This document shows positions 27,664 to 64,000 of a stretch of 64,000 bases of DNA, in pieces. Positions within the stretch are counted from its first letter, which is position 1. Every line of letters begins with the position of its first letter. The notes beneath the pieces were generated by a model that did not search any database, was not told the DNA's origin, and was given only the letters and a program-made list of their open reading frames with translations. Made by a program: the position numbers and the translations under genes. The stretch is from contig NC_134683.1 in the NCBI RefSeq assembly GCF_024713945.1, positions 4,031,501-4,095,500 on the forward strand, read 5' to 3'. The DNA comes from Dermatophagoides farinae. Its lineage: Eukaryota > Arthropoda > Arachnida > Sarcoptiformes > Pyroglyphidae.

Positions 27664-30398
27664 AATTGTTATTAGGAAGAAATTAGACACCAAACTTGGT
27701 GTCAAAACAATATAACAATATATATTAATTATGACTTCAATCGGTCGATCATCTCGTTTCCGGGGATCAGAAAACCCGGAAAGAAAATGTTTACCTCGAA
27801 ACAGTTTCATATTTATTATTATTATGCTGAAATCCATTACCGTTATTGATTTCCGTTCAGGAAAAAAAAATTTTTTATGGTGATAATCTATGATGATCAT
27901 TTTTGTTGTATGCTAATCGATTGAATCCAACCAGATGTTTTGAGGAGAGAAAAAAAAAGAGCCGCAATGGCGTAATCAAGATATCAACAACACCACTACC
28001 CCACAATTTAAGCTCATTGGATTTTACCGTTTCATCTTGTAATGGAAAAACAACTTTGTCAAAAAAAATGTATGATCATATACAAAATTGAACCATCCAT
28101 ATAAGACGTACAACATATAGAAAAAAATTTTATTTACACAGAAAAAAATCGTGATAAAACGATAGTAACAATTTTTTTTTAACCAGAAAAAAAATAAAAG
28201 GTAGTAGCATAACGACAAATAAAAAAACGTTCTTATAAACGGTAAAATGTCATTTTGTCACTACAAAATTCATACCACTACTACTACAACTATTCATTAC
28301 ACATAATGCTCTTGTTTATTCATTTGTTTGTTTGTTGTGAGTCCACAATACACAACCACACAACAACTAGCGGCATATAATTGTTATATGAATGATAAAT
28401 TTTAATCGTCGTCGTCGTCGTCGTTGTTGTTGTTGTTAGCGTTAGCGTTAGCGTTCGATGTTTTTTTTTCAATTTTCAATGTTTACGTCTTTCACTTTCA
28501 AAGTGAATTAATAAATTATTATATTATATTTTTTTTTTCGTTCACCATTTTGATCTTGTTGTTGTCGTTTTCGTAATTATCATCTTCTTCAAATCATCAT
28601 CGTCATCATTCATTGTGTGTGTTTGTTTGTTTTCGTCGAGTTGGTTGTGTCTTTATTGTTGATATAATGTTGAATTAAATTCAATAACATCAATAGGAAA
28701 CAATAAAAAAAACGCAACAACCAAATGTAAGACACACACTCACCAGACCTAGACCAGTATAATGAAAAAAAAAATGTATCAAACAACCAATAAAAAACAA
28801 CATTCATCATCATCATCATCATCATTTGACAATATATAAATCAATTATTCGACACCTGTTTTTTTTTTGTGTGTGTGTGTGTATGAAAATCAACATTTTG
28901 CCTGAATTTTATCTATATAGATATATAAATTTGACTTTCAACAACAGCAAAAAAAAAAAAAAAAATGGTTAACCTTATAATGTATCAAATAAGAAAAGTA
29001 AATTTGAATATATTTATCCCATTTATCATTGATGATTATCACCGAACAAATTGATCATTTATCTTTTTATTTTTTGAACAACAAATTGAAACTGAACAAC
29101 AAAAAAAAAGTATTTCTGCTGTAATTGGCGAAAAAAAAAAAATTTTTTCCATTTCCCATTCATTCGTGTTTTTTTTTCTTTGCTCATTTCTGTTTCACTT
29201 TCATCATCTTCATTATTATCATCATAACAACATCAATTTGATCAGCCATTCATTCATATAATGTAACCATATTTTCTAATAATCATTGTAACATCGGATT
29301 CATCATTATCATCAACTCATCAACATTTTTTTTTAATCTCTGTATGTATGTTCAAATGTAGTCTTTTTCCATTTCTCTCAAAATTTTTCTCTCTCTCTCT
29401 CTCTATCTATCTCTTTTCTATGGATCGATTTGATTAAGAAACACCGTTAATCTCTTGAAAAATGAATGAAAAAAAAAGAGAAAAGGCCAAATTCGTTTAT
29501 AGTTATGACGCAATTTCTTTTGAAATTGTTCCAAATTGAAATGAAAAATTTTACAATTTTTTTTTCTTGCTGTTTATGCTGCTAGATCTTGAAATTTGGT
29601 TTTGGCCTGTTTGTTTGTGTGTGTGTTTGAAAAACGCCCTTATCTTCTACTATAGTGGATGTCATTTGATCATGAAACTTGGTGTTATGTGTTGTTTTTT
29701 TTTTTTTTGTTTGTATGGATGGTTCCACCAGTGATATATAAATAATAATTTGCTTTTAATTTTGAAATTTTTTTTGTTGTTGTTAAAAATCTGATGTAGT
29801 TATTATTATGTAATTTATTAGTGTGTTGTAATATCAGATTTTCCTTTTTTTTCTTGTGATTGATTTCATCCCATTTGATGATTGATTGATTGATTTATAA
29901 TTGAAAAGAAAATTCCGCGATTGGATTTCTTGTCAAAATTTTTTTTTGTTTCATTTTCGTTGATCATCAACAATAGCAATATTTATTTGTTGTTATCAAT
30001 TTCAACATTTTCAATTAACTATTTGTTTTTTTTGGTTCGTTTTGTACATTTTTTTTTACTCTTATCCATTTTGATCGATTGATTGATTGATTGGATTGAA
30101 CTGTAATGTAGTGTTTTGTTTGTTTGTGTGTGATAAGAATGAAATTTTGTTTTTCAAAGTCTATAAATGTGTATTATGAGCAAGTGTGAATGAATCTTGA
30201 CGAAAAAAAAATTGAGTTGATGGTCATCATTGAATTACAGAATTTCCATTCATTTATTTATCTTTCAATGTACTTTTTTTTGTTGTCTGGTTGATTAATG
30301 CTAATTTGTTTTTTATTTTGTTTATGATTTTGAAATTTAGCCAATCAATTTTTGACATTCGAATGAAATAATAATTTTCATCATATATATATTTCGAA
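27664..30398. other. Non-coding spacer upstream of the myotubularin gene
   Basis: Mostly AT-rich repeats (GTC/GTT near 28408-28437, CT near 29390-29404, GATT near 29880). A short palindrome, GACACCAAACTTGGTGTC, is at about 27687. No frame with a recognisable domain was found. Confidence 0.6.
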
Positions 30399-33300
30399 AT
30401 GAACGAATCATCATCATTATTACCGAATGGTTCTGGTATTAATAATAATGATAAAGAATCAATAAAAATAGCCGAAATGAAGATTGAACAATCACAACAA
30501 CGAGAAGATATTAGTGTAGAAACAACTGATAATAATGTTGTTACTGTTGTTGATGGATGTTTATGTGAAAAATCATCACCATCGATAATCGATAATGGTG
30601 ATGTAAAACAAGATCAACAACAATTAATTACCGATAATTATGAATTAAATGATCGAAATTTGGATGCAACAACAACGACAACATCAACAACAATTAGTGA
30701 TACAGCAAGTGAATCATCATCATCAAATAATTCTGATGATAATCATGATGTAAATCATCATAATCATATGGCCGGTATTATTATGTGTAATAATCGTAAT
30801 CAAAATGAAAATGAAACGAACAAAATTGATCATGATCATTTAATTGATAATAATAATGGTGATAAAGGTCAACAACAACCGTCAACAATGATACAATCAA
30901 CTGCCAATCATCATCATCATCAAATAGCACAACAACAACAGGTACCGTTTCCATTATTAGCAGGTGAATCATTGCAACATCATGAAACGACGAATGATTA
31001 TCAAATTTTCTTGACAAATTATCGATTTTTTGTAAAAAATATTATTATTCAACATAAACGATCATCAATAATGATACCATCATCACCACAACAGCAACAT
31101 TTACAAACAACGACACCATCAACAATTACAATGAATGGTGGTACTACAGCTGTTTGTTTTCAGAATGGTATAAATGGTCATGTAACAATTAAAAATAATA
31201 ATAATAATAAATCTCATCTTAATAATAATAATAATAATCAATTAAATTATCTACAACAACAAAATGATCATCGTACTAATTATCATCAACATTCGAATGA
31301 TCAGCGGCAAGAATTTTTTATACCAATCAATAATATTGATTGGATAGAGATACGTGACATTTATTTTCTTACAATTTATACAAAATATATTGAATCATTT
31401 GTATTGACGTTTGATAATCAAGAATCAATACAACAATGGCATAAACGTTTATGTGATATACAACAGATTGATATTAATAAATTGTTCTGTTTTCAATTCT
31501 ATCGTGAATTGGCCATTGGCATTGATAATAATCATCATAATAATCATATTATTAATAACAAATTTATAAATTTGTTTTCAAATAATCAAGATGTGATTGA
31601 AAAATTATATCGCCAATCTAATCATTTGATTCATTTTGAATTTAAAAGAATGAATTTTAAAAATAATGATGATAATGATAATGATCAACAACAACAACAA
31701 TCATGGCGTATTTGTGATTTGAATAAAGACTTCAAGTTCTGTAATAGTTATCCAGAATATTTTATTGTACCAGCAGATATAACAGATAAAGAATTGGAAT
31801 ATATTGCAAATTTTCGTTATTCAAGACGTATACCAGTAGTGGTTTGGCGTAATCGTCATAATGGTTGTGTTATAATGCGTTCATCACAGCCAGTTGTTGG
31901 TTGGTTTTTTGGCCGTTGTAATCAAGATGAAAAAATGTTGCAAAAAGTATTGAAAATATGTCAACGTGATACACAATATAATTATTATGGTGGTGGTGGT
32001 GGTGGTGATAATTTAATGATGACAACAACAAAATTGACAAACGGTGGCAATATGATTAATAGTAATGGAACTACAACACCTGCACTATACAATGGTAATG
32101 GAAATCATATGGATCATAATCAATCAATTAAAATGAATGGTGGTGGTGATGGTTTTAAATTATTGTCAAATGGTGGTAGTACGACGACAACAACAGCAAC
32201 GAAACAACAACAAACGAATCATTCCACTGTTGTTGATCAAGATTCTTCAAATGATGATGATAACGATGATGATGATGATGATGATCAATCAAATAATAAT
32301 AAGCTATTAATATTGGATGCAAGATCATATACAGCTGCATTTGCTAATCGTGCATTAGGTGGTGGTTGTGAATGTCCAGAATATTATACAAATTGTGATA
32401 TACAATTTATGGGTTTAAATAATATACATGGTATACGGAAAAGTTTTTATAATTTACGTTATATATGTGAATCATCACAGATTGATCAATCAAAGTAAGT
32501 GGAATATTTTTGTTTGTTTTGTAAACTGTACAATTATTAATTTATCATTTATTAAACACAGTTGGTATACATTATTGGATAATACAAAATGGCTTCATAA
32601 TCTAGCTAGTCTATTGAAAGCTGCCGTTGTTGTTGTTGATGCAATCACTATACAAGAACGTCCTGTGCTGGTACATTGTTCAGATGGTTGGGATCGTACA
32701 CCGCAAGTTATTGCATTGGCTGAATTAATGCTTGATCCATTTTATCGTACAATTGATGGTTTTAAAATTTTAATCGAAAAAGAATGGCTACAATATGGTC
32801 ATAAATTTGCTGATCGTTGTCGTAGTAGTACATTGAATATTGATCCAAATGAACGTTGTCCAGTGTTTCTGCAATGGGTTGATTGTGTTCATCAATTGGT
32901 CAAACAATTTCCACGAGAATTTGAATTTAATGTTTTCTATCTGGTAATTATTGTCATGTTTTGTTTTTGTACATTAGCATTTATTTTGATTTACTTTTAC
33001 TTTAGATGAAACTTGTCTATCATTCATATTCATGTTTGTTTGGTACATTCACCTGTAATACTGTTCAAGAACGTCGTTCATATCAGGTGTATGAGAAAAC
33101 AATATCATTATGGTCATATTTTGAAATGAATCGAGCCAATTTTATCAATTATCTTTATTTGCCAACGCTTGAGGTATTTATTTATTTATTTATTGTTGAA
33201 TGAAATTCATGAATTTTCGTAATTATAATTTGAATTTGAATTTTTTCATCAACAAAACAAACAAAGGTATTACGGCCTTCATGTCGTGTAAAGGATATAA

Positions 33301-34310
33301 TATTTTGGAATGAAATATATGTACCTGTATCAAATAATGGAACCGATGTAACGAATATGGCAATATCATCATGTAATGGTATTTGTAATCATCATGGAAC
33401 AGCATCGACAGCAGCTGTTGTTTCATTGGCCACCAATCGATCGACTATTGCCAATACAAATAATGAACAATTTGATTGTCAACATGAAACTAAATGTCAA
33501 TCACAATCTAAATGTGATCTTAATCGTTCAGCATCATATGAAAGTTTGGCCAATTTTGATATGAAACAGTCACAGCCACCACAACCACAACCACCGCCAT
33601 CTACTAATTACAATGATAGAAATTTACCATCATCAATAAAACATTTTACAGATACAACAATATCATCATCATCAGTAACAATATTGAATAGACATTTAAG
33701 CGATACATGTCTATTCAAAAGATCAAATCAAATTTTTAATAATTATGCATTGGCAACAACGCCATATATGACAAATGGATTGATGATTACAGATAATCGA
33801 ATTAATTGTGATAATAATGATGATGATATGGACGAAATGTCTAAACATCAACCTCCCATAATGAACGGATTAGCCAACAATAACAACAATATCAACAAAC
33901 ATTCGAATATGATAATGAGAATGGTTAATAATAATGGATATGATATTGAAGATTGTCATCTTTTATCATCAACATTATCATCATCACAAAATAAACCTGC
34001 TACATATGTTAATTGTAATGGATCATCAAAAACGTTGATGAATCATCAGCCAAATAATTTATCAACAACAACAACAAGTACAGATAGTAATTTGTCTACC
34101 ATATTCGATATTGATGGTCAAATTATTGGTCATAATAATAATAGCCGACTACAACTGCAACAATTGATCAATTATCATAAGGTATTTTTGTTCAAGTTTT
34201 ATAATTGACTAGAAACCATTTTAATTTCAATTTTTGTTTCCAATTTCATCGTGATACATTAGAATATGATCAAACGGCTAACGAGTCAATTGAATTTTAA
34301 GAAATCATAA
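30399..34310 (+). CDS. Myotubularin-related phosphatase (MTMR3/4-like), complete copy
   Basis: Five exons, 30399-32494, 32562-32943, 33006-33173, 33267-34181 and 34263-34310, sum in frame to 1202 aa. An N-terminal ~180-residue low-complexity tail is followed by a PH-GRAM domain (about 181-350; FPLLAGESL, IFLTNYRFFVKN, WIEIRDIYFLT). The phosphatase core then starts near residue 440 (FRYSRRIPVVVWRN, SQPVVGWFFGRC), with an acidic/G/N insert before the C-terminal half. The active site LVHCSDGWDRT has the intact C-x5-R (Cys738, Arg744). Following text such as GHKFADRC, CPVFLQWVDCVHQLVKQFP and YSCLFGTF points to the MTMR3/4 subgroup, which removes the 3-phosphate from PI3P and PI(3,5)P2 on endosomes. 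The C-terminal FYVE finger usual in that subgroup is not visible; the frame ends after a Q/L segment. Exon 2 onward is duplicated downstream. Confidence 0.92.
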
Positions 34311-35012
34311 TAACTACGAAAAAAAATCCAATATGATGACAATACATTCCATAATCGAATCAAAAACGATATATAATGATGGAATGATATATACCGATAA
34401 CGATCAATAAAACAAAAAAAAAAAACAAAACAAAACCACAAACAACAACTTTCTTCTCTTGAATGGAAAAAAATCCTAGTCGTAAATCTATTATATCGTG
34501 TTTCCGTTTCTTCTGTCTTTCCTTCCACCCGTCTCCCCCCCAAAAAAAATGAAATCATTTCATTATCATCATCGTCATCATCATCGTCAACACAACAACA
34601 AACAACAGTGCAAAATACCAAGTTATGGATAATGGAACATCATTTTTTTTCCTTCTTACAAAAACAAAAATTTTTAAAATTTCTTTTAGTTTTGTTTTTT
34701 TCCTACTTGTTATTATATATATTTATTGATGTGTTGTCACACACACATACACACACCTCTATTATTGTCCAAACAAAACAAATACAAAATCATCATCCAC
34801 CCAATTTGTCTTTGTTATTTTCCCTTTGTCACACCTACACACACACACACCTCACTTTCTATTTTACCTTTAAATTTGTTTGTTAATTTGTGACTACTAC
34901 CTATTATTATATATTACAAGAAATATTAAATGTTTCTATTTCTACTTTTAAAAATTAATTGATCATCATCATTTTATTTAAACTTTTTTTCTATGACAAT
35001 TTAATCACATTT

Positions 35013-37354
35013 TTAGTTTTCGGATGATGGACGACGATCACTATCATCGTTTGGTTCTTCAAAATTAAGATAGATTGGTATATGGGCACGGAATCCCATT
35101 GATTTAGCCAATTGTTCATGGATACCATCAAATGGATCGATCGACCATTGTTGTTGATCATTGGTAGCAGGAAATTGCGAATGATGTTCATTATAACAAC
35201 CAAGTTTTCGATACATTGAACTAATTGTTTTTCCATCTAAATTTTCAATCACAACGGCAAATTTATCATCCGTAGTCATGTAATATTTTCGTACAAACGA
35301 AGTTTTATCCGCATTTGTTATAGTCTCAATTTCAGCCAAATTTGTAATATCAATCAAATGTTTTGGAAGTTTATCCAAATAAACATCGATTCGATTCTGT
35401 TTAAGAACGTTCGGAAATTCATGGCCATGTTTACGATAATGATAAACTGCTTTCAATGGATCTTCAAAATGAATATCATTTTTACTGGCAATATCCATTG
35501 CTATTTTAGAATCAGATAAAATGTTCCAAATAAATGATTCTTTGTCAATGAATTGGAAATGATCTGAATTGATTGTTTTCATATCACGATTCGGAAACAC
35601 TGGTTGTGTAGGATAGAAAAATTATTATTGATTTTGTTTGTTTTTTTTTGGCATTTAATTTAGTATAACTTACATTTTTTAAGTTCTGCAGTAAGAATTT
35701 CAACAATGCTCAATACATCATCGATATTGTTCATTCCCATGCCAATAACGATGCTGATAGCTTCATTAAGAATATTCTCATTTTTGCCAGCTGTATCACC
35801 AATTACATTGTTTAAACGTGATTTTTGACGGTCATTCAAATTGTCGAAAATCTTTTTTCCATCTATTTCAATTTTATCTGCATTGATTTTTTCTAAACAT
35901 TTTCGTGTCTGTCGTTGTAAATTAACTGTACCAGAATTTCGTACTTTGCTAGTAAATTTTACATTATTATTTGGCCTTATACGATGTTTTAAATTATTTC
36001 CGTCACTAATCAACAAAGTACGTCCTTTTCGTCCACCAATTTCGATTTTTGTTGAATCTTTTAGATTGGCAAAAAGCTTGTTCGGATCATTTATTTTATT
36101 TATTGTTCGAACTATCTTTGATCTATCTTTAATCGAGCCACTTCCTTTGTTGTCAGCCAAAAATTTGTCGAATGTTTTCTGTGCATCAGCATCGGTCAAT
36201 GATTTTGAATATGCCTGAATATGTTTTTCTTGAGCTTTTTGAATAATAGTAGCGGCTATTTTTGGTTGAATTAAATTATTGGTAAAGAAGAATAAACTCA
36301 TTGAAAATTGTAATACGTCGAGAGGGGTGAGCTGATTATTTTTAGATTTTTCAATCAGATTAGCGATACCAAAACCAACCATAATGCTATCGACACCAAG
36401 CGTGCTGAAATTCAATATCGTTGCAAACATACGCATAGAACTACTAAATATTCGACCTTCCTCTGTGGCACCACGAACCAAAGCAGCATTGACCATTGAG
36501 CTTGTAAAGTTTAGCGGTGTGGCAGCAATACTAAACCAAAGAAAAAAGCTTTCCTTATCGGTTAAACTTTCGCCATGGGACCCTTTATCGACCAATCGAT
36601 TAATGGCTCGAAATGTTCCGTAAATAGCAGAGGAACCGCCAGCGTATGCGGAACCTAACAAAACAAAGGGAGCAAGTGGTGTGAACATCGAAGCAATTCC
36701 AATGGCTCCGCATGTAAATGTTGCTGCTGTAGTGATATTATCAGCGAAGTTTAAAAAACTAGAAGAAGCCTTACAAGCGGGCGACTTTCCAAATTCAATA
36801 TCAGGATCTTTGTCTGGATCGAATACGAAATTATTACCAGCACCAAAAGCAGTAAAAAAACCAAGTTTAGGATAACAATACTCAAGCTTTGGCAAGACAT
36901 TATTACATTTCCAATCATTCCAATCAGAATAAGTTCGTCGTTGCATATCAATAAAAACATTCGAATCTTCATTAGCTGCTTTTGGTTGCGAATAAGATCC
37001 AGTATACATTCGGAATATTGGTAAAGGAAATTCATTTTTTTCTGTTTTACAATAAATGAATATGATTCCAACAAAAAGACGTGAAAAACCTTGTCTTTTT
37101 TCCTTGTGAACATCCAGAATAATTTTCAAAAACTTTTCGCCTTCTGTACGTTGTTCATCGGTATAACCTTCCCAAACTTCTTTAGCTTTGCTAATGGTTG
37201 GACAACCATACATGGCAAAACATATTTTTGCAAGTAATAGTTTTTCGTCCTCGGTACCGATTTTGTATTCATCATATTGACTTCCGTTGAAACTTTGATA
37301 AAACATTTTCATTGTTTTAACGGCGTTTTCTCTCCAAAATGATTTATTTTCCAT
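35013..37354 (-). CDS. DUF4781-like protein Y1
   Basis: Two exons, 35674-37354 and 35013-35599, are joined across a 74-bp intron with donor GTAAGT and acceptor CAACCAG, giving 755 aa. Without splicing the frame would end 4 codons later. The start MENKSFWRENAVKTMKMFYQ has no signal peptide. A central hydrophobic region contains ASMFTPLAPFVLLGSAYAGG, then SAIYGTFRAINRLVDKGSHG and FLWFSIAATPLNFTSSMVNA. That resembles the arthropod DUF4781 family as I remember it, whose function is unknown. A charged K-rich segment (GGRKGRTLLISDGNNLKHR) and a C-terminal exon with DPLKAVYHYRKHGHEFP follow. It is followed downstream by the 3' end of MTMR (convergent), and gene X1 lies upstream on the same strand. 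A near-intact second copy is at 42480-44811. Confidence 0.8.
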
Positions 37355-37551
37355 TTTGTTCGTTTAAATTAGTGTTGGATTTAGGATAGCTGTACAAACC
37401 ATCAACAAATGATTACGATGAATACGATACAATTTTATTCAGCGGTCAAATCAGGTTGAAACCAGATGGAAAATCAAAAAAAAAAGAATTGGGGTGTTTT
37501 TTTGTGATTCAAAAAAAAAAAACAAATAGAAAATGAAACAAAACACAAATA

Positions 37552-37645
37552 ATTAGATCAGGATAAAAAATAAATCATATTTATATGATTACGTGTCGTG
37601 AAAAAATGAATGCAATCCATTGATTATTCCTATGGTTAATTTTAA
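37552..37645 (-). promoter_or_regulatory. Shared upstream element, copy before Y1
   Basis: This ~94-bp block has the text ATTAGATC...GGATAAAAAA, a CATATTTATATGATTACGTG core (TATA-like when read toward Y1) and TGATTATTCCTATGGTTAA. It recurs upstream of X1, Y2 and X2. Its position 5' of genes with unrelated coding text suggests a promoter or other control region; that function is inferred. Confidence 0.55.
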
Positions 37646-38035
37646 TATTTTTTTCCATTATCGTTAGAATTCCATGATATTTTGATACTTTATCAAAATC
37701 AACATCAAATGTTGATAATGTACAATGTTGTCGTCTCGCCCAATGAGATTGTATTCAATTCTCAATATAAACGCAAGGCGTTATTTGTCAATTTTGATTT
37801 CACAGGTAATATAAAAAAATCCTCAGCTATTCTTATCTCGATATGATTGAGATTGAGTCTTTTGATATGAGAAAAAAAAGACCATCCTCGATCGTAGTCC
37901 ACTTTGGCACAATGGTGGCAAAATATATTTCTTTTTCCTTGGAGATAAGTCCCAAATTTTGACCATTCTCAATACCATTGTAGAAAATTTTTTAAGATGA
38001 TAATCGATTATTGGAAAATTAATAGATCGTTTTAT
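37646..38035. other. Spacer between Y1 upstream element and X1
   Basis: Conserved in unit 2 (about 45101-45386 and 46317-46429). It contains ATCAAAATCAACATCAAATG and a short possibly coding-like stretch around 37700-37810 that is open in unit 2 but broken here. The intergenic site of the 930-bp insertion in unit 2 corresponds to about 37923-37928 here. Confidence 0.4.
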
Positions 38036-38530
38036 TTAAACTTTTTCATCTTGTTGTTCATCCGAATCATTGTCGGATATAGGTTGTACAAACCACCACC
38101 AATGATTGTGAGGGATACGAGAGATTTGTTCGTCGGTCACATGAGAATAATGAACAGATGGATATTCGATAGGCAAAGATAATTCCTTACAATTTTTAAT
38201 ATATTCATCAACCTGTACACAAGGAACTCTGTCTAAAATGGATCCATTACCAAGCTCATCAACAATATATTGAAGACCAGAACGAAAACGTTGAGCAGTT
38301 TCCACTGTATCAGGTACAAGACTTATACTCAATTGGATAAAGAATTCCTTTAGAATAGGAATGATTTTTTCCACCATACATTCAACTTCGGCACGTTCTT
38401 TGTCCCCAAACAATGGTTTCGGTTGATGAAAAGCAAATAATAGACAATTTTCCAATGTTGGACGTAGGTTTCGATTTTTTCTACTCATGGTAGATAGTTT
38501 TTGCAATTCTTTCAAAAAATTGTTTTCCAT
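38036..38530 (-). CDS. Orphan 164-aa protein X1
   Basis: A single-exon frame starts at ATG 38530 (MENNFLKELQKLSTMSRKNR) and ends in an acidic tail (SDNDSDEQQDEKV). It has no signal peptide and no transmembrane helix. Predicted helices lie around ECMVEKIIPILKEFFIQL, and a HWWWFVQP cluster lies near the C-terminus. I do not recognise the family. A nearly identical copy (X2, 46430-46924) keeps the whole frame with only a few substitutions, which supports it being a real gene. It lies upstream of Y1 on the same strand and shares an upstream element with it. The opening MEN-x-x-F also resembles Y, so distant kinship with the Y N-terminus is possible. Confidence 0.7.
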   Translation of the reverse strand: MENNFLKELQKLSTMSRKNRNLRPTLENCLLFAFHQPKPLFGDKERAEVECMVEKIIPILKEFFIQLSISLVPDTVETAQRFRSGLQYIVDELGNGSILDRVPCVQVDEYIKNCKELSLPIEYPSVHYSHVTDEQISRIPHNHWWWFVQPISDNDSDEQQDEKV

Positions 38531-40096
38531 TCTATATTACACACAAAAAAAAAACAATGAGAAAAATCATAAATTAGATCTGCGGATAAAAAAAATCAAA
38601 TTTACATGATTACGTTTAGTGAATCAAAATTGATTGATTATTCCTGTGGTTAATTTCAATTTTATCGTTGTTATCGTTATTGTTGTTGGAATTTTAATTT
38701 AAAAAAAATCGACAAACACCCACCATCAAAAAAAAAAAACAAAAAAGAAAAAAAACACGAGTACTTTATTTATGAATTTCTCCTTATTTCTCCCTCTCTC
38801 TCTCACACACATAAAAATCAATTGGATCAAACACCGTGTGTGTGTGTGTGAGTTTTTTTCTCTCTCACACTTTGTATGTGTGGCTAAAATCCCAAAAAAA
38901 AAAAAAAATCTAAACCCAAAGAATGTGTTTGTGATGCACACAAAACACACACTCAAATACACTGAACATTTTTTTTTTGTTTTGTTTCTTTGTTTATGAA
39001 TTTTATATTCGGGAATTGTGAAAAAAAAAACAAATGAATCCATCATCAAATTATTATTCTAATCAAATGAAACTAAGGACAAACGAAAAAAAAATCAATG
39101 ATTCTTGATGTTCAGTGATTGCATCCAGAGAAAAAAAAATAATAAGAACCAAATTGCTCAAACATTCTATTCTGTTGAACAGATGGTCATCTTTTGATTA
39201 AAAAAAATTTGATTTGAATATAAAATGTGATTGGTCACATAGTCATATCACAACAGCAATGACAATTGAATCATATTGAATCAATGAATTGGCATCCATC
39301 AAACCTAAATCAATCAATCAAATTATATATCGATCGATTGATCGATCACCCATATATTATTATTTTCATTTTATTTCATTGTTTCTCTTTCAATTATTAT
39401 TATATATTTTATTATATTTGTGCATGTAGAACTCATATTTTTTCATCGATGTTTAACACATTCATCATTCACATTTACCACCACCGCCAACACCATAGAA
39501 CACCAGTATATAATCATCATCATCATCGAAACTAGCATCATCATCATCATCATCATCCACCATCTATCGCATCGAAAAAAAAGAATCAGACATACACAGA
39601 CACACATACATACATTTTATAATTTCAGACGACCACATTTTTTTTTATCATCCATCCATCGTCGTCTTCTTCGTTGTTGTTGTTGTGTTTGTTTGTTTGT
39701 CGTCGACATCCCCCATAAAAAAAAAAAAAATACATTCAATGATGAGGATCAAGTGAAAAAAAAATCATCATTTTCTCTCTCTCTCTCTCTCGCTTTCTGT
39801 TTGTGTATGTATGTGTGTGTGTATTATTTGAGCAATTGTTTTGTATATGAGTGTGAGTAAAAATTTTGTGTATGGTATTGATGGTGTGTATGTTTTTTTT
39901 CTAAAAAAAAAAAGTTTGGAATTTTTTTTTCATTCTTATTTTCATCATTGTTTAAGAATTTGATTGATTTTGTAAACACACATCTTATATATTCTTGAAT
40001 TCAATTTGAAACATATACACAATCGAATATATATTATTCTCCATACAGACATTATTTGATCGAAATAGAATCGAATTGAATCGTTGTTGTTGTTGC
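38531..40096. other. Non-coding block, duplicate of the MASK 5' flank
   Basis: It holds the X1 upstream element and then sequence matching 46925-48452, the region 5' of the MASK gene. Because of the duplication it now lies directly before the truncated MTMR copy. It contains CT, GT and ATC microsatellites and no domain-bearing frame. Confidence 0.7.
38573..38660 (-). promoter_or_regulatory. Shared upstream element, copy before X1
   Basis: Related to 37552-37645: ATTAGATC, GCGGATAAAAAAAATC, ATGATTACGTTTAGTGAATC and GATTATTCCTGTGGTTAATT in the same order. It begins about 43 bp upstream of the X1 start codon. Confidence 0.55.
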
Positions 40097-41779
40097 AAAG
40101 CTGCCGTTGTTGTTGTTGATGCAATCACCATACAAGAACGTCCTGTATTGGTACATTGTTCAGATGGTTGGGATCGTACACCGCAAGTCATTGCATTGGC
40201 TGAATTAATGCTTGATCCATTTTATCGTACAATTGATGGTTTTAAAATCTTAATTGAAAAAGAATGGCTACAATATGGTCATAAGTTTGCTGATCGTTGT
40301 CGTAGTAGTACATTGAATATTGATCCAAATGAACGTTGTCCAGTGTTTCTGCAATGGGTTGATTGTGTTCATCAATTGGTCAAACAATTTCCACGAGAAT
40401 TTGAATTCAATGTTTTCTATCTGGTAATTATTGTGATGTTTTGTTTTTGTACATTAGCATTTATTTTGATTTACTTTTACTTTAGATGAAACTTGTCTAT
40501 CATTCATATTCATGTTTGTTTGGTACATTCACCTGTAATACTGTTCAAGAACGTCGTTCATATCAGGTGTATGAGAAAACAATATCATTATGGTCATATT
40601 TTGAAATGAATCGAGCCAATTTTATCAATTATCTTTATTTGCCAACGCTTGAGGTATTTATTTATTTATTTATTGTTGAATGAAATTAATGAATTTTCGC
40701 AATTATAATTTGAATTTGAATTTTTTCATCAACAAAACAAACAAAGGTATTACGGCCTTCATGTCGTGTAAAGGATATAATATTTTGGAATGAAATATAT
40801 GTACCTGTATCGAATAATGGAACCGATGTAACGAATATGGCAATATCATCATGTAATGGTATTTGTAATCATCATGGAACAGCATCGACAGCAGCTGTTG
40901 TTTCATTGGCCACAAATCGATCGACTATTGCCAATACAAACAATGAACAATTTGATTGTCAACATGAAACTAAATGTCAATCACAATCTAAATGTGATCT
41001 TAATCGTTCAGCATCATATGAAAGTTTGGCCAATTTTGATATGAAACAGTCACAGCCATCACAACCACAACCACCGCCATCTACTAATTACAATAATAGA
41101 AATTTACCATCAATAAAACATTTTACAGATACAACAATATCATCATCATCAATAACAATATTGAATAGACATTTAAGCGATACATGTTTATTCAAAAGAT
41201 CAAATCAAATTTTTAATAATTATGCATTGGCAACAACGCCATATATGACAAATGGATTGATGATTACAGATAATCGAATTAATTGTGATAATAATGATGA
41301 TATGGGCGAAATGTCCAAACATCAACCTCCCATAATGAATGGATTAGCCAACAATAACAACAATATCAACAAACATCCGAATATGATGAGAATGGTTAAT
41401 GATAATGGATATGATATTGAAGATTGTCATCTTTTATCATCAACATTATCATCATCACAAAATAAACCTGCAACATATGTTAATTGTAATGGATCATCAA
41501 AAACGATGATGAATCATCAGTCAAATAATTTATCAACAACAACAACAAGTACAGATAGTAATTTGTCTACCATATTCGATATTGATGGTCAAATTATTGG
41601 TCATAATAATAATAGCCGACTACAACTGCAACAATTGATCAATTATCATAAGGTATTTTTGTTCAAGTTTTATAATTGACTAGAATCTATTTTAATTTCA
41701 ATTTTTTTCCAATTTCATTATGATACATTAGAATATGATCAAACGGCTAACGAGTCAATTGAATTTTAAGAAATCATAA
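40097..41779 (+). pseudogene. 5'-truncated myotubularin copy
   Basis: It contains the duplicated part of exon 2 (40097-40423), exon 3 (40486-40653), exon 4 (40747-41652) and exon 5 (41732-41779), all with intact splice sites and open frame. The PH-GRAM domain, the N-terminal half of the phosphatase and the exon-2 acceptor are missing. The active-site loop VHCSDGWDRT remains. Indels relative to the complete copy are in frame (for example one Ser lost and one Asp lost in exon 4). There is no ATG before the active site in this frame within the copied DNA. It is most likely a pseudogene, unless transcription from the upstream MASK-like flank makes a chimera. Confidence 0.85.
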
Positions 41780-42479
41780 TAACTACGAAAAAAAATCCAA
41801 TATGATGACAATACATTCCATAATCGAATCAAAAACGATATATAATGATGGAATGATATATACCGATAACGATCAATAAAACAAAAAAAAACCAAAACAA
41901 AACCACAAACATATGGAACAACAACTTTCTTCTCTTGAATGGAAAAAAATCCTAGTCGTAAATCTATTATATCGTGTTTCCGTTTCTTCTGTCTTTCCTT
42001 CCACCTGTCCCCCCCCCAAAAAATGAAATCATTTCATTATCATCATCGTCATCATCATCGTCAACACAACAACAAACAACAGTGCAAAATACCAAGTTAT
42101 GGAACATCATTTTTTTCCTTCTTACAAAAACAAAAATTTTTAAAATTTCTTTTAGTTTTGTTTTTTTCCTACTTGTTATTATATATATTTATTGATGTGT
42201 TGTCACACACACATACACACACCTCTATTATTGTCCAAACAAAACAAATACAAAATCATCATCCACCCAATTTGTCTTTGTTATTTTCCCTTTGTCACAC
42301 CTACACACACACACACCTCACTTTCTATTTTACCTTTAAATTTGTTTGTTAATTTGTGACTACTACCTATTATTATATATTACAAGAAATATTAAATGTT
42401 TCTATTTCTACTTTTAAAAATTAAATTGATCATCATCATTTTATTTAAACTTTTTTTCTATGACAATTTAATCACATTT

Positions 42480-44811
42480 TTAGTTTTCGGATGATGGACG
42501 ACGATCACTATCATCGTTTGGTTCTTCAAAATTAAGATAGATTGGTATATGGGCACGGAATCCCATTGATTTAGCCAATTGTTCGTGGATACCATCAAAT
42601 GGATCAATCGACCATTGTTGTTGATCATTGGTAGTAGGAAATTGCGAATGATGTTCATTATAACAACCAAGTTTTCGATACATTGAACTAATTGTTTTTC
42701 CATCTAATTTTTCAATCACAACGGCAAATTTATCATCCGGAGTCATGTAATATTTTCGTACAAACGAAGTTTTATCCACATCATTTGTTACAGTCTCCAT
42801 TTGAGTCAAATTTGTAATATCAATCAAATGTTTTGGAAGTTTATCCAAATAAACATCGATTCGATTCTGTTTAAGAACGTTCGGAAATTCATGGCCATGT
42901 TTACGATAATGATAAACTGCTTTCAATGGATCTTCAAAATGAACATCATTTTTACTGGCAATATCCATTGCTATTTTATAATCAGAGTCAATTTTCGAAA
43001 TAAATGATTTTTTGTCAATTGATTGTAAATGGCCTGAATTGATTTCTTTCATACTACGATACGGAAACGCTGTTTGTGAGGAATAGAAAAATTATTATTG
43101 ATTTTGTTTTGTTTTTTTTTTGACAATAAAATTAGTATAACTTACATTTTTCGAGTTCTGCACAAAGAATTTCAGCAATGCTCAATACATCATCGATATT
43201 GTTCAATCCCATATCCTTGCTGATGCTGATAGCTTCATTAAGAATATTCTCATTTTTGCCAGCTGCTCCACCAATTGTTTTGTTACACCGTGATTTTTGA
43301 CGGTCATTTAAATTGTCGAAAATCTTTTTTCCATCTGCATTGATTTTTTCTAAACATTTTTGTGTCTGTTTTTGTAAATTAACTGCACCAAATTGTTGTA
43401 CATTGCTAGTAAATTTTACATTACTATTTGGCCTTATACGATGCTTTAAATTATTTCCGTCACTAATCAACAAAGTACGTCCTTTTCGTCCACCAATTTC
43501 GATTTTTGTTGAATCTTTTAGATTGGCAAAAAGCTTGTTCGGATCATTTATTTTATTTATTGTTCGAACTATCTTTGATCTATCTTTAATCGAGCCACTT
43601 CCTTTGTTGTCAGCCAAAAATTTGTCGAATGTTTTCTTTGCATCAACATCGGTCAATGATTTTGAATATGCCTGAATATGTTTTTCTTGAGCTTTTTGAA
43701 TAATAGTAGAGGCCATTTTTGGTCGAATTAAAGTATTGGTAAAGAAGAATAAACTCATTGAAAATTGTAATACATCCAGAGAGGTGAGCTGATTATTTTT
43801 AGATTTTTCAATCAGATTAGCGATACCAAAACCAATCATAATGCCATCGACACCAAGTGTGCTGAAATTCAATATCGTTGCAAACATACGCATAGAACTA
43901 CTAAATATTCGACCTTCCTCTGTGGCACCACGAACCAAAGCAGCATTGACCATTGAGCTTGTAAAGTTTAGCGGTGTGGCAGCAATACTAAACCAAAGAA
44001 GAAAGCTTTCTATATCGGTTAAACTTTCGCCATGGGACCCTTTATCGACCAATCGATGAATGGCTCGACATGTTCCGTAAATAGCAGAGGAACCGCCAAG
44101 GGATGCGGAACTAAACAAAACAATAGGAGCGAGCGGCGTGAACATCGATATTATCCCAGTTACTCCGCATAAAAATGTTGTTAATGCAGTAATCTTATCA
44201 GTGAAGTTTAACACCTTAGAAGAAACATCACAAGCGGGCGACGTTCCATATTCAATGTCAGGATCTTTGTCTGGATCGAATATGAAATTATTACCAGCAC
44301 CAGAAGCAGTAAAAAAACCGAGTCTAGGATAATAATACTCAAGCTTTGGCAAGACATTCTTATATTTCCAATCATTCCAATCCGAATAAGTTCGTCGTTG
44401 CATATCAATAAAAACGTTCGAACCATCATCAGCTGTTTTTGGTTGAGAATTAGATCCGGTATACAATCGGAATATCGGCAAAATAAATTCATTTTCTTTT
44501 GTCTTACAATAAATGAATATTGTACCGACAAGAAGACTTCGAAAACCTTTTCTTTCTTTCTTGTGAACATCCAGAATAATTTTCAAAAACTTTTCGCCTT
44601 CTGTACGTTGTTCATTGGTATAACCTTGCCAAAGTTCTTCAGCTTCGCTAATGGTTGGAGGACCATAAATGGCAAAACATATTTTTGCAAGTAATAGTTT
44701 TTCGTCCTCGGTACCGATTTTGTATTCATCATATTGACTTCCATTAAAACTTTGATAAAACATTTTCATTGTTTTAACGGCGGTTTCTTTCCAAAATGAT
44801 TTATTTTCCAT
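42480..44811 (-). CDS. DUF4781-like protein Y2
   Basis: Two exons, 43146-44811 and 42480-43069, with the same donor (GTAAGT) and an equivalent acceptor (CAAACAG) as Y1, give 751 aa. The frame is intact. The start, the hydrophobic core and the C-terminal exon match Y1. By my count, however, about sixty residues differ in the first ~275, including charge swaps such as KEKRQGFSR versus KKERKGFRS. Only about a dozen differ over the next ~195. Near residue 480 a five-residue segment (KIEID in Y1) is missing. Function is unknown; the family assignment is the same as for Y1. The intact frame and splice sites suggest it is functional. Confidence 0.8.
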
Positions 44812-45007
44812 TTTGTTCGTTTAAATTAGTGTTGGATTTAGGATAGCTGTACAAACCATCAACAAATGATTACGATACAATTTTATTCAGCGGTCAAATC
44901 AGGTTGAAACCAGATGGGAAATCAAAAAAAAAAAGGATTGGGATGTTTTTTTGTGATTCAAAAAAAACAAACAAATAGAAAATAGAAAATGAAACAAAAC
45001 ACAAATA

Positions 45008-45100
45008 ATTAGATCCGGATAAAAAAAAATCATATTTATATGATTACGTGTCATGAAAAAAATGAATGCAATCCATTGATTATTCCTATGGTTAATTTTA
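45008..45100 (-). promoter_or_regulatory. Shared upstream element, copy before Y2
   Basis: Unit-2 counterpart of 37552-37645, with ATTAGATCCGGATAAAAAAA, TCATATTTATATGATTACGTG (in part) and GATTATTCCTATGGTTAATT conserved. Confidence 0.55.
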
Positions 45101-45386
45101 ATATTTTTTTTCCATTGTCGTTAGAATTCCATGATATTTTGATAATTTATCAAAATCAACATCAAATGCTGATAATGTACAATGTTGTTGTCTCGCCACC
45201 AATGAGATTGCATTCAATTCCCAATAAAAACGCTAAGCGTCAATTTGTCAATTTTGATTTCACAGGTAATATAAAAAAAATCCTCAGCTAGTCATATCTC
45301 GATATGATTGAGATTGAGTATTTTGATATGAAAAAAAGATCATCCTTGATCATGGTCCACTTTGGCACAATGGTGGCAAAATATAT

Positions 45387-46316
45387 GTAAAAAATTTAAC
45401 TTTATTCAAATGAAATCACTGCTAAATAGTGTGATCTCCACAAGATAAAGATTGTCGTGTTCTGTGTTTAGTTTAAGGGGGATAGGAAGTGTTGAATGCG
45501 CAAAAAAGAACACATTTTTTGTTAAATGATTACTCTTTAATGAAATGTCCAAAATTTTTGAAATTTACTAATGTAATTATTTACAATTCCTTGAATAATT
45601 TAACATTAAAAAAAATAAAAAATATTTATGCATCAATATGAGACAATCAGTTAAAAATCACCTGTTCAAAAAGCATGGTCGGCGTGATATCTTAAGAACC
45701 GTAGCTCAGAATTTGATAAAATTTTCAGGAATTATTGATATTATCAGTGGCTATGGCGTATGACTAAATTAAGGCGTAGAACCGGATATTGCAGTAAATA
45801 TTAGCCTGAAAAAACTGTTAATTTTTCAACCCTAAGTTTCATTTGGCCCAAAAATGTTCTTTTTCTTGGAGATATATAGTGATTTAGTCATACGCCATAG
45901 CCACTGATCCTGTCCATAATTCCTGAAAATTTCATCAAATTCTGAGCTACGGTTCTTAAGATATCACACCGACCATGCTTTTTGAACAGCTGATTTCAAC
46001 TGATTGTTTCATATTAATGTATAATTTTTTTTAAATTTTTGTTTATGTTAAATTATTCTAGGACTCATAAATAATTACATAGGTAAGTTTCAAAAATTTC
46101 GGATGTTTCTTTAAAGAGCAATCATTTAACAAAAAATGCGTTTTTTTGGCGCCCTCTACAGTTCCTATCCCCTTAAATAGTTTGTATATGAATTTTAAAG
46201 AATGTTGATTGATATTTTTGTTTGTGTTTATTAATTATCCGATAACTAAATTATCGGTTATGTTTAAATGTTTGGAATTTATAGAAAATATTATAATTCA
46301 AATTTTATAATGTTAC
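45387..46316. mobile_element. 930-bp insertion unique to unit 2
   Basis: Comparison with unit 1 shows precise extra sequence between 45386 and 46317, flanked on both sides by ATATAT (45381-45386 and 46317-46322), a likely 6-bp target duplication, although the site is simple sequence. The ends are GTAA and TTAC, with only weak longer inverted similarity. Inside lies a TTAA-flanked fold-back element. There is no coding capacity. It entered after the segmental duplication, or was lost from unit 1. Confidence 0.75.
45473..46176. mobile_element. Fold-back (long inverted repeat) MITE, TTAA-flanked
   Basis: Two arms, 45473-45769 and 45882-46176, are inverted copies of each other around a ~112-bp loop. 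The outer ends are TTAAGGGGGATAGGAA and its complement TTCCTATCCCCTTAA, so TTAA sits at both edges, as expected for a TTAA-targeting (piggyBac-like) non-autonomous element. The inner ~115 bp of each arm (containing ATATCTTAAGAACCGTAGCT) are nearly perfect complements, while the outer parts differ more. A transcript would form a long hairpin. Confidence 0.8.
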
Positions 46317-46429
46317 ATATATTTCCTTTTCCTTGGAGATTAGTCCCAAATTTTGACCATTCTCAATACCATTGCAGAAAATTTTTTAAAATGATAATCG
46401 CTTATTGGAAAATTAATAGATCGTTTTAT

Positions 46430-46924
46430 TTAAACTTTTTCATCTTGTTGTTCATCCGAATCATTGTCGGATATAGGTTGTACAAACCACCACCAATGAT
46501 TGCGAGGGATACGAGAGATTTGTTCGTCGGTCACATGAGAATAATGAACAGATGGATATTCGATAGGCAAAGATAATTCCTTACAATTTTTAATATATTC
46601 ATCAACCTGTACACAAGGAACTCTGTCTAAAATGGATCCATTACCAAGCTCATCAACAATATATTGAAGACCAGAACGAAAACGTTGAGCAGTTTCCACT
46701 GTATCAGGTATAAGACTTATTCTCAATTGGATGAAAAATTCCTTTAGAATAGGAATGATTTTTTCCACCATACATTCAACTTCGGCACGTTCTTTGTCCC
46801 CAAACAATGGTTTCGGTTGATGAAAAGCAAATAATAGACAATTTTCCAATGTTGGACGTAGGTTTCGATTTTTTCTACTCATGGTAGATAGTTTTTGCAA
46901 TTCTTTCAAAAAATTGTTTTCCAT
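46430..46924 (-). CDS. Orphan 164-aa protein X2
   Basis: Single-exon frame matching X1 over its full length. I count four amino-acid differences: Ser to Arg, Leu unchanged, Val to Ile, His to Arg and similar conservative sites. Start, acidic tail and the HWWWFVQP cluster are kept. It is much less diverged from X1 than Y2 is from Y1. Function is unknown. Confidence 0.7.
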   Translation of the reverse strand: MENNFLKELQKLSTMSRKNRNLRPTLENCLLFAFHQPKPLFGDKERAEVECMVEKIIPILKEFFIQLRISLIPDTVETAQRFRSGLQYIVDELGNGSILDRVPCVQVDEYIKNCKELSLPIEYPSVHYSHVTDEQISRIPRNHWWWFVQPISDNDSDEQQDEKV

Positions 46925-49193
46925 TCTATATTACACACAAAAAAAAACAATGAGAAAAATCATAAATTAGATCTGCGGATAAAAAAAATCAAATTTACAT
47001 GATTACGTTTAGTGAATCAAAATTGATTGATTATTCCTGTGGTTAATTTCAATTTTATCGTTGTTATCGTTATTGTTGTTGGAATTTTGATGAAAAATTG
47101 ACAAACACCCATCACCAAAAAAACAAAAAAGAAAAAAAAACACGAGTACTTTATTTATGAATTTCTCCTTATTTCTCTCTCACACACATAAAAATCAATT
47201 GGATCAAACACCGTGTGTGTGTGTGTGTTGAGTTTTTTTTTTTCTCTCTCACACTGTGTATGTGTGGCTAAAATCCCAAAAAAAAAAAAAAAAAAATCTA
47301 AACCCAAAGAATGTGTTTGTGATGCACACAACACAACACACTCAAATACACTGAACATTTTTTTTTGTTTCTTTGTTTATGAATTTTATATATTCGGGAA
47401 TTGTGAAAAAAAAAACAAATGAATCCATCAAATTATTATTCTAATCAAATGAAACTAAGGACAAACGAAAAAAAAATCAATGATTCTTGATGTTCAGTGA
47501 TTGTATCCAGAGAAAAAAAAATAATAAGAACCAAATTGCTCAAACATTATATTCTGTTGAACAAATGGTCATCGTTTGATTGAAAAAATTTGTTTTGAAT
47601 ATAAAATGTGATTGGTCATATAGTCATATCACAACAGCAATGACAATTGAATCATATTGAATCAATGAATTGGCATCCATCAAACCTAAATCAATCAATC
47701 AAATTATATATCGATCGATTGATCGATCACCCATATATTATTATTTTCATTTTATTTCATTGTTTCTCTTTCAATTATTATTATATATTTTATTATATTT
47801 GTGCATGTAGAACTAATATTTTTTTCATCGATATCGATGTTTAACACATTCATCATTCACATTTACCACCACCGCCAACACCATAGAACACCAGTATATA
47901 ATCATCATCATCATCATCGAAACTAGCATCATCATCATCCACCATCTATCGTATCGAAAAAAAAGAATCAGACATACACAGACACACATACATACATACA
48001 TTTTATAATTTCAGACGACCACATTTTTTTTTATCATCCATCCATCGTCGTCTTCTTCGTTGTTGTTGTTGTGTTTGTTTGTTTGTCGTTGACATCCCCC
48101 ATAAAAAAAATACATTCAATGATGAGGATCAAGTGAAAAAAAAATCATCATTTTCTCTCTCTCTCTCTCGCTTTCTGTTTGTGTGTGTGTATTATTTGAG
48201 CAATTGTTTTGTATATGAGTGTGAGTAAAAATTTTGTGTATGGTATTGATGGTGTGTATGTTTTTTTTCTAAAAAAAAAAGTTTGGAATTTTTTTTTCAT
48301 TCTTATTTTCATTCATTGTTTAAGAATTGATTGATTTTGTAAACACACATCTTATATATTCTTGAATTCAATTTGAAACATACACAATCGAATATATATT
48401 ATTCTACATACAGACATTATTTGATCGAAATAGAATCGAATTGAATCGTTGTCCATTCTTTTGTGTGTACTCGATTTTTTTTTCACTCAAATTTTTGCTC
48501 ATTCAGGTATATATATTGATTGATTGATTATTGCCAATGTATGCATGCATGTGTTTTTTTTTAATTCATAAAATTGAAATGATAATGATTAGATTGGTGG
48601 TTTATTTTTCATTTTTTTTTGTCCTCTGTGTACACCACTCTTTGCACAAACACAAACACACACACACCCGCACATTCATTTCCGTTGTGGTTTTTGGAAA
48701 TCTTCTTGCGCCCACCAATTGCACCGATAAGAATTGTTTGATCCACAAGCTAGATTTTCTTTTCTTTTCTAATCAAATCATTTCATTTTTGTTTAAAAAA
48801 AAATTCTAATGATTCTCATTTTCTTTCTTGTTTTGTTCCAGGAATCAGGAATTAAATAAAATCCATTGATGATCGTTTATTATAGAAGAAATCATATAAT
48901 AACCGAAAAAAAATATCTGGAAATTGAATCAAATCGATTGTGTGTGTGTGTGTGTGTCTATGTGTTGGTAGTGCTCGGTATTTTTTTTCGTTTGTTTGTG
49001 AAATACACACAACAACACCCACCCATATAGTAAAATAATAAATCATCGAATTATCGCCTGTTTTTTTTCTATTTTATCGGCTTATTTTTTTCTTCTTTAT
49101 TCGGTGGATCATTCTGGAACTTTCCGGTAAGATTTTTTTTTGGTTGTTATTGTTCATCTGTTTTTGATTTTTTTTTTAAATTTTGATTTATAG
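46925..49193. other. 5' flank and probable leader region of MASK
   Basis: Non-coding and AT-rich with CT, GT and ATC repeats. Up to 48452 it is the duplicated block; beyond that it is unique. A splice acceptor (TTTATAG) at 49191-49193 just before the coding exon suggests a non-coding first exon somewhere in this stretch. Confidence 0.5.
46966..47050 (-). promoter_or_regulatory. Shared upstream element, copy before X2
   Basis: Unit-2 counterpart of 38573-38660, nearly identical to it and related to the elements before Y1 and Y2. Confidence 0.55.
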
Positions 49194-63000: not shown

Positions 63001-64000
63001 CCATCATCTTCAATGGCTTCTTCCACATCAATATCGAAACCACAACACAACAACAACATCAACATTCAGATTCAATGATTATTGATGATAAACAATCTAA
63101 TCTAACTTCTGTATTCAAAACCAGTAATGTTTCAAATAGTAGTAGTAATAATCGACAATTTGTATCATCAAATTCTTCATCATCGGCATCATCATCAGCT
63201 GTTGATGTTGCTGCAGCATTTTCACCATCATCAGCTGTAACCACAGGCTCATTATCGATACAAACTTGTGTGGATAATAATAGTAATAATAATAATAACA
63301 ACAATAATCAATCTGTTCCACCACATCATTCACAATATCATCAACAGCAGCAGCCACAGCATTCGAATCCAACACCAATTGGACATGTGAGATCGGCACC
63401 ATGTACTCCTCCTATTGCGAATTATATTTCATTTGGTTCCAAATTTATATCGGCCAATTCAAATAATCTACAATCACAACAATTACAGCAGACATTATCA
63501 GATGTTCTTTATAGTAATGATTCACAGCAACAACAACAACTGTTGCAATCAAATGTAACTGGAAACAATAATAACAAATTGAATAATGTTGATCCATTCT
63601 TATTGAATTCTGCTGCTGTTTCATCCACAACATCGGAATATGCTAATTTGTTTCAACAACAACAACAACAACAACAGCACAATAGCAATGGTGCTAATAA
63701 CCAGAATAATCAAATACATCCAAATTTTCTTTTATCCAATATGATGATCAATTCAAATGCTGAATCGACCTTATCGAATCATTCACATCATCATGGAATA
63801 ATGGGACATCAACCAGTATCAATGAGTTCACCAATCAATCGTGCATCTGTAAATGCTGCTAGCTTCCTTGATCATAGGCCAATCACGCCCAATATCTATG
63901 AACATCATTCTTCCAAACCAACAACATCATCATCGTCATCCAGTAGATCATCGCAATTGAATCCAAATGCACCGGATTTTGCTTCCCGTTCAAATTCATT
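49216..64000 (+). CDS. mask: MASK/ANKHD1: multiple ankyrin repeats, single KH domain (3' end outside window)
   Basis: Exons 49216-49689, 49750-50298, 53032-53248, 53321-53422, 53492-58198, 58408-61412 and 61509 to beyond the window. The N-terminal part has HEAFAAQVRTIMKAAGLISD and a long D/E run. Ankyrin array 1 (~15 repeats, about residues 620-1080) and array 2 (~10 repeats, about 2375-2695) follow the family layout. After array 2 comes a basic coiled segment (AAAARRRERKKQKKKERAG), then a KH domain near 3165-3235 with GWKEVVERRKSKKVLVPANA and the GRAG loop of an RNA-binding KH. MASK proteins are cytoplasmic/nuclear scaffolds known as Hippo/Yorkie cofactors and in receptor tyrosine kinase signalling. 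The reading frame breaks by one base near 59374 and again near 63046, both in CAA/CAG tracts. Confidence 0.93.
50299..53031 (+). other. mask: 2.7-kb intron of MASK
   Basis: The only large intron seen in the window, from donor GTATGT to acceptor TTTTCAAAG. It is filled with GT, GTT, GAT and poly-T repeats (for example 51038-51066 and 52248-52268). No nested gene was found on either strand. Confidence 0.7.

Follow-up and report, generated by a model that had tools for sequence, protein, structure and literature searches.

A gene called here Y and a predicted gene called X lie side by side on the minus strand, each in two copies, in a 64,000-nucleotide stretch of the genome of the mite Dermatophagoides farinae (assembly GCF_024713945.1, contig NC_134683.1, positions 4,031,501 to 4,095,500; the whole stretch is referred to as the window). 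The locus raises the question of whether the pair represents a duplicated functional module, as a sequence-only reading of the same DNA had proposed, or two neighbors joined by their recombination history. Our analyses confirmed the earlier observation and partly supported its interpretation: Y is a member of the DUF4781 protein family, its leader and upstream DNA are similar to the two ends of X, and the divergence between the two copies is concentrated in Y, while nothing shows that X works with Y. With a probability of roughly 40%, we favor the reading that Y is an intracellular, membrane-inserting conflict or defense protein that is diversified by recombination and that inherited its start region from X.

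Two copies of Y and X in a tandem duplication

Self-BLAST and alignment place two repeat units side by side (Table 1), an extent considerably narrower than the span initially proposed (30399-49193), and the duplication of the Y-X block is real. In each unit, a myotubularin-related phosphatase gene on the plus strand (PF06602) is represented by its 3' half, and Y and X follow. The 5' part of the phosphatase gene is located to the left of unit A and has no counterpart in copy B, where the 5' stretch read contains no in-frame ATG ahead of the catalytic motif. It is very improbable that the two units are two haplotypes of one locus that were placed end to end during assembly. Only a single assembly is at hand, and a background divergence of approx. 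2% is within the range that two haplotypes could show; however, copy B begins within a phosphatase exon, where short repeats mark the junction, continues to a separate right flank of its own, and carries a 0.93-kb insertion between Y and X that is found in unit B only. X and Y were indeed copied together, as the sequence-only reading had stated, but not alone; as half of an unrelated phosphatase gene travelled with them, their having been copied as a block does not speak for a common function. The phosphatase gene (30375-34208, plus strand) also shows long Asn/His/Gln-rich stretches.

Both copies of Y have open frames and an intron with GT-AG splice sites (74 bp in copy A, 76 bp in copy B), as had been reported for the pair of linked minus-strand genes, and the assignment of Y to DUF4781 was borne out. 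The PF16013 profile matched exon 1 with 273.9 bits (copy A) and 267.2 bits (copy B), as compared to the curated Pfam cut-off of 27.9 bits, and the match covered profile positions 2-310 of 310; by profile score, Y is a member of the DUF4781 family. A hydrophobic stretch is located within the DUF4781 domain and, in the mite, coincides with one of the divergence islands described below, while a crude hydropathy analysis showed no hydrophobic stretch among the approx. 110 residues ahead of the domain. Exon 1 had no match in PDB and a single one (E = 0.7) in phage records, and a Pfam scan did not find a Death domain in Y. Exon 2 showed no meaningful match in Pfam, NCBIfam or a plasmid collection (two matches in the latter, with E = 0.4 and 0.6) and none in viral contigs, for which few patterns were used. 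In the mite genome (a 62.4-Mb, 22-contig assembly used for all genome-wide searches, with the window on contig C7), exon 2 was present in its two copies, and otherwise only four matches with E-values of 0.04-0.14 were found. A protein of the mite allergen family PF11642 that this genome encodes is identical to Der f 21 over residues 8-118 (111 residues), as expected for D. farinae or a very close relative.

We also considered whether the C-terminal part of Y represents a BECR-type ribonuclease, an idea prompted by an H-Y-x-K-H-G-x-E-F stretch known from bacterial toxins. This candidate was unsupported and was dropped: the Pfam and NCBIfam matches were weak and unrelated, the plasmid matches were those given above, and the predicted fold had a mean predicted local distance difference test (pLDDT) score of 36. 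A motif scan of viral contigs yielded 47 loci with frames that appeared unrelated by eye (many of them nucleotidyltransferase-like, as judged without a family scan), among which the top profile score was 10.2 bits (E = 0.0011 within this set), mostly outside the motif. Listings of the literature on toxin-antidote elements, D. farinae assemblies and D. farinae gene conversion showed nothing on this gene.

X is probably a gene, although this is not proven. It showed no significant relative in Pfam, NCBIfam, PDB, phage records, its own genome or a viral-contig scan with few patterns, the search not extending to other mites and plasmids. An ATG-initiated frame of at least 164 codons occurred in only 4 of 1000 dinucleotide shuffles of the X region. 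Moreover, no indels separate the copies of X over 496 bp, where the non-coding rate predicts 5.4 (Poisson, P = 0.005), a rate that is probably inflated by homopolymer-rich DNA. Codon usage was uninformative, because exon 2 of Y and a myotubularin exon were as unremarkable as X (z = 1.4, 0.8 and 0.9, respectively) and a presumed non-coding frame reached z = 4.4; frame length replaced it as the test for coding capacity. The two copies of X differ at 5 sites, too few to judge the ratio of non-synonymous to synonymous substitution rates (dN/dS), and the AlphaFold model of X was unusable (mean pLDDT 42.5).

Shared upstream DNA and the leader of Y

The common upstream element described in the sequence-only reading was recovered before each X and each Y, with 74-75% identity over approx. 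110-130 bp. In a DNA search of the genome it occurred four times, always at this locus; as the search skips very common words, four is a lower bound. In copy A, the match between the two elements (E = 6 × 10-18) is the first of a collinear pair of X-Y matches, the second of which joins 104 bp of X to the leader of Y (Table 1). The local alignment score of this leader against X (46) was reached in none of 3000 shuffles. As controls, the best of 1846 other pieces of the window scored 36 against X, while the best of 840 mite pieces sized like X scored 28 against the leader and reversed X scored 21. When 44798-44927 was tried as the Y leader of copy B, the score against X was 37, which none of 1000 shuffles reached. 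The leader of Y and its upstream region are thus collinearly similar to another gene, the signature looked for in a captured promoter.

These data suggest that the upstream element and the leader of Y are the two ends of an internally deleted copy of X. X, which is probably the older resident, would once have been duplicated, its second copy would have lost the middle, and Y would now start in the remains of that copy and probably use its promoter. The opposite direction, in which X was built from the leader of Y, would require the addition of approx. 400 bp of open frame and appears less likely. Because the leader and upstream DNA of Y look like both ends of a decayed X copy, the shared upstream DNA, which had been taken as a sign of a co-regulated system, would follow from descent; this weakens the case for a two-gene system, although co-expression is possible. 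The locus would then represent a readable case of a gene that apparently took its promoter and 5' leader from the decayed copy of a neighbor.

X as a paralog of Y was rejected, as X has no protein similarity to exon 1 or exon 2, the relation being one between X and the leader and upstream DNA of Y. The 3' end of X includes a 21-bp stretch with an AATAAA (38026-38046), of which 20 of 21 bases are found again at the 3' end of Y (34968-34988); chance, a common 3' end or a further trace of the X copy could each account for it.

Uneven divergence between the copies

Divergence between the copies is uneven, as had been noticed before. Outside positions 35500-37354, 121 of 5526 aligned sites differ (2.19%), as compared to 162 of 1840 sites inside (8.80%), i.e., divergence in the core of Y is four times the outside value (between tandem copies in one assembly), and single 100-bp windows in Y reach 20-26%. 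Differences are clustered within the coding sequence and intron of Y, as the observed variance among 60-bp windows was reached by none of 20000 permutations, and an identical run as long as the longest one observed (193 bp) occurred in 1 of 20000. Since the islands listed in Table 1 were read off the same alignment, tests restricted to them were discounted, and permutation and whole-exon tests were counted. Differing sites amounted to 26/1583 in the truncated phosphatase part (which should be near unconstrained in copy B), 5/496 in the coding sequence of X, 40/1502 upstream of X, 21/372 in the X-Y spacer and 9/74 in the intron of Y. Synonymous differences in exon 1 of Y (34/350) were likewise in excess of the outside value for all sites, from which it follows that the islands predate the event behind the 2% background, or that they have another source. 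Unevenness, together with coding constraint, had been taken to suggest a functional module; the excess, however, lies mainly in Y and includes synonymous sites, intron and spacer, which speaks for recombination of divergent copies or alleles rather than for constraint on a cassette.

A further fragment of Y speaks to the origin of the islands. This degenerate DUF4781 fragment is located on contig C8 (L016, 6040-6455), approx. 3.4 kb from the contig end and near a retroelement-like RNase H frame. Among the 46 sites at which it sides with one of the two copies, 16 consecutive sites agree with copy B (approx. residues 185-211), after which 13 of 16 agree with copy A (residues 214-234). When the order of sites was shuffled, so long a run was rare (P = 2 × 10-5), as were so few runs (P = 0.013). 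These alternating blocks suggest that recombination among divergent sequences gave rise to the islands, and gene conversion among copies and the joining of diverged haplotypes both fit. Under the reading that we favor, Y would be diversified via gene conversion or recombination among divergent alleles.

The two copies of Y differ by 126 non-synonymous and 38 synonymous substitutions, with a dN/dS of 0.86 that is not different from 1 (P = 0.42, two-sided). When the same 164 substitutions were placed randomly, 7.1 stop codons were expected and only 0.04% of 5000 trials produced none; the observed number is zero. Both indels in Y are multiples of three, while in non-coding DNA this holds for 8 of 38 (P = 0.058). 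Y retains its frame, and its amino acid residues evolve at about the same pace as its silent sites. The coding constraint claimed in the sequence-only reading is hence retained for the frame, but not for the amino acid sequence of Y. This pattern fits a fast-evolving conflict gene, although one for which positive selection is not shown.

One alternative is that one or both copies of Y are dispensable and change freely. A dN/dS that does not differ from 1 and the already degenerate fragment on contig C8 agree with such relaxed decay; we consider it unlikely, as no stop codon has arisen where 7.1 would be expected, the splice sites are retained, and loss of constraint would not raise the synonymous divergence of exon 1 to several times the outside level. 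In the strongest rival, Y is an ordinary cellular gene that has passed through a complicated series of recombination events, and the islands are remnants of an older duplication, or of two diverged haplotypes brought together by unequal crossing-over, that was then partly homogenized, with no need for a diversifying force. Synonymous sites and the intron share in the excess, dN/dS is close to but not above 1, and the mosaic on contig C8 demonstrates recombination rather than selection, all of which this explanation accommodates; it is possible, if somewhat unlikely, since it gives no account of why the islands fall mainly in Y, nor of the snail and bacterial hints described below.

With regard to the remaining features of the window, the insertion in unit B (45387-46316) contains an imperfect palindrome of approx. 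700 bp, with 8 other near full-length copies of the insertion at 86-88% identity among the matches listed; the two outer segments of the insertion (query 1-88 and 791-930) have matches that lie next to each other elsewhere, an arrangement resembling a repeat nested within a second one. Frames with ankyrin repeats followed by a KH domain are located to the right of the duplication (53455-63078), and we take them to be MASK/ANKHD1-like by domain order. Rfam showed no match within the window at gathering scores.

Table 1 Features of the Y-X locus, in positions of the window
Feature	Position	Strand	Details
Tandem duplication unit A	32617..40088		Boundaries approximate; self-BLAST and alignment
Tandem duplication unit B	40097..48452		Boundaries approximate; self-BLAST and alignment
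Y copy A	35013..37354	-	Exon 1 37354-35674, intron 35673-35600, exon 2 35599-35013; DUF4781, 755 amino acids
Y copy B	42480..44811	-	Exon 1 44811-43146, exon 2 43069-42480; DUF4781, 751 amino acids
X copy A	38036..38530	-	Open frame of 164 amino acids without significant relatives
X copy B	46430..46924	-	Open frame of 164 amino acids, 98% identical to copy A
Upstream element of X, copy A	38545..38663	-	Matches 37649-37521, 74.8% over 131 columns
Upstream element of Y, copy A (apparent 5' part of decayed X copy)	37521..37649	-	Match to 38663-38545
Leader of Y copy A, over the ATG (putative remnant of X 3' coding end)	37347..37454	-	Matches 38145-38042, E = 4.6 × 10-7, score 46
Stretch tested as leader of Y copy B (putative, weaker remnant of the same X end)	44798..44927	-	Score 37, 0/1000 shuffles
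Divergence island, start of Y exon 2, intron and end of exon 1	35517..35816	-	10-21% per 100-bp window
Divergence island, Y, over the DUF4781 hydrophobic stretch	36617..36816	-	17-26% per 100-bp window; hydropathy
Divergence island, Y, before and at the DUF4781 start	36967..37116	-	16-18% per 100-bp window
Truncated copy, 3' half of myotubularin-related gene	40010..41679	+	No in-frame ATG ahead of the catalytic motif in the 5' stretch read
Insertion in unit B only	45387..46316		Member of a dispersed repeat

DUF4781 elsewhere and the possible role of Y

DUF4781 has no assigned function, and in the literature searched its name or Pfam number occurred in three papers, in none of them in the title or abstract. 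The family is nevertheless described, if uncharacterized, and Y is not lineage specific as had been supposed: published studies place DUF4781 in a rotifer gene (PMC12220480), in a Burkholderia protein that joins it to HopBF1 in type III clusters (PMC12580581), and in the snail Biomphalaria sudanica, where BSUD.9255, given as a candidate pathogen recognition receptor, combines DUF4781 with a Death domain (PMC10875847). Among the transmembrane proteins of five inbred lines, that of the snail gene ranks with the 20 most diverse, with a coding diversity of 3.3% as compared to a median nucleotide diversity of 0.32% (PMC10875847).

We also analyzed six bacterial DUF4781 proteins, i.e., those from Bosea, Paracoccus contaminans, Paracoccus sanguinis, Ensifer and Methylobacterium and one more from the class to which Methylobacterium belongs. 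A C-terminal non-specific endonuclease domain scored above the Pfam cut-off in three of these proteins and below it in one (Methylobacterium), and was not found in the other two; five of the bacterial proteins have a hydrophobic stretch inside DUF4781, as Y does. Type III secretion genes adjoin two of the six (Bosea, by annotation, and Methylobacterium, by Pfam), and at the other four loci the genes displayed or scanned included none. At three of four plasmid loci, a gene that follows is immunity-like (SUKH or YezG-like); only one of the three exceeds its cut-off, namely the gene two positions behind the DUF4781 gene of P. sanguinis. On the P. sanguinis plasmid (L030, 3813-7931), a small unknown gene and a SMI1/KNR4 gene come after the DUF4781-nuclease gene, a toxin-immunity-like layout. 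A search of genome contigs with the mite alignment found no relative, a weak test with only two N-terminal peptide patterns, and the same search with a Bosea-mite alignment found one locus (Methylobacterium). PF16013 was present in 2 of 385 genomes of the Methylobacterium class, including the starting genome.

Under our favored reading, Y would insert the hydrophobic stretch of DUF4781, predicted to act at approx. residues 195-255, into a membrane and would present or deliver the C-terminal domain in the course of a conflict, most probably defense against microbes or parasites. A conflict role is suggested because bacterial DUF4781 proteins carry nucleases, some of them beside type III secretion or immunity-like genes, and because the snail gene is diverse. 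Several observations weigh against this reading. Exon 2 shows no known toxin or immune domain (Pfam and NCBIfam), and its AlphaFold model was unusable (mean pLDDT 36.0). The dN/dS of Y is nowhere significantly above 1, the excess divergence extends to the X-Y spacer and is thus not confined to coding sequence, and all three indels in the phosphatase exons, which belong to the truncated gene in copy B and are trinucleotide-rich, are multiples of three as well, which makes in-frame indels weak evidence. The link to a bacterial protein consists of 193 aligned columns at 23% identity (Bosea) and the Pfam profile, and the direction of copying from X to the leader of Y is suggested by parsimony only.

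A more far-reaching proposal, which we regard as doubtful, is that Y is an animal gene, laid out like bacterial DUF4781 toxins or effectors with a membrane stretch and a C-terminal domain, that was recruited to mite defense, switched on via the broken copy of a neighbor and kept hypervariable by recombination. If this were true, DUF4781 would be a conflict domain common to bacterial secreted toxins and invertebrate immunity. Three separate hints meet at this locus, i.e., bacterial proteins that end in nucleases, a diverse snail gene and the patchwork divergence in an allergy-causing mite; if they belong together, the function of DUF4781 becomes testable.

The bacterial loci also bear on the possibility that X and Y act together as a functional cassette. 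The strongest version of this idea is a toxin-antidote pair, with a harmful Y and a protective X that are linked and co-expressed. X and Y are adjacent, have related upstream DNA and were duplicated together, and bacterial DUF4781-nuclease genes can precede immunity-like genes. However, the upstream likeness would be explained by descent from an X copy, the duplicated block takes in half a phosphatase gene, and X, although it adjoins Y as a cognate immunity gene might, matches no Pfam family, immunity families included. Moreover, X hardly differs between the copies while Y does, whereas a cognate partner might co-vary, and the small gene follows in the bacterial loci while X precedes in the mite. 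Overall, a cassette appears decidedly improbable.

Genes that take their promoter from a neighboring partial duplicate form a known general class, and Y resembles it in that its start region matches both ends of the adjacent X. Y differs from this class in that the donor copy seems to keep both ends without the middle, and in that donor and recipient stayed adjacent and were then duplicated again together. With the bacterial DUF4781-nucleases (Bosea vestrisii, Paracoccus contaminans and Paracoccus sanguinis, as well as Methylobacterium jeotgali, below the cut-off), Y shares the core, the inner hydrophobic stretch and the presence of a further domain after it, while it lacks their approx. 400-500 residues before DUF4781 and a recognized nuclease domain, and contains an intron. 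The recognized C-terminal toxin domain of polymorphic toxins was likewise not found in exon 2 by Pfam and NCBIfam, where a diverged domain is possible. BSUD.9255 is, like Y, a DUF4781 gene with exceptional sequence diversity; it differs from Y in its Death domain, and its diversity is found between inbred lines rather than between tandem copies. As compared to DUF4781 itself, which was known before and the profile of which exon 1 of both copies covers almost completely, the mite locus adds a C-terminal part without relatives in the searches made, a tandem pair of Y genes with divergence islands, and a leader that appears to derive from another gene, X.

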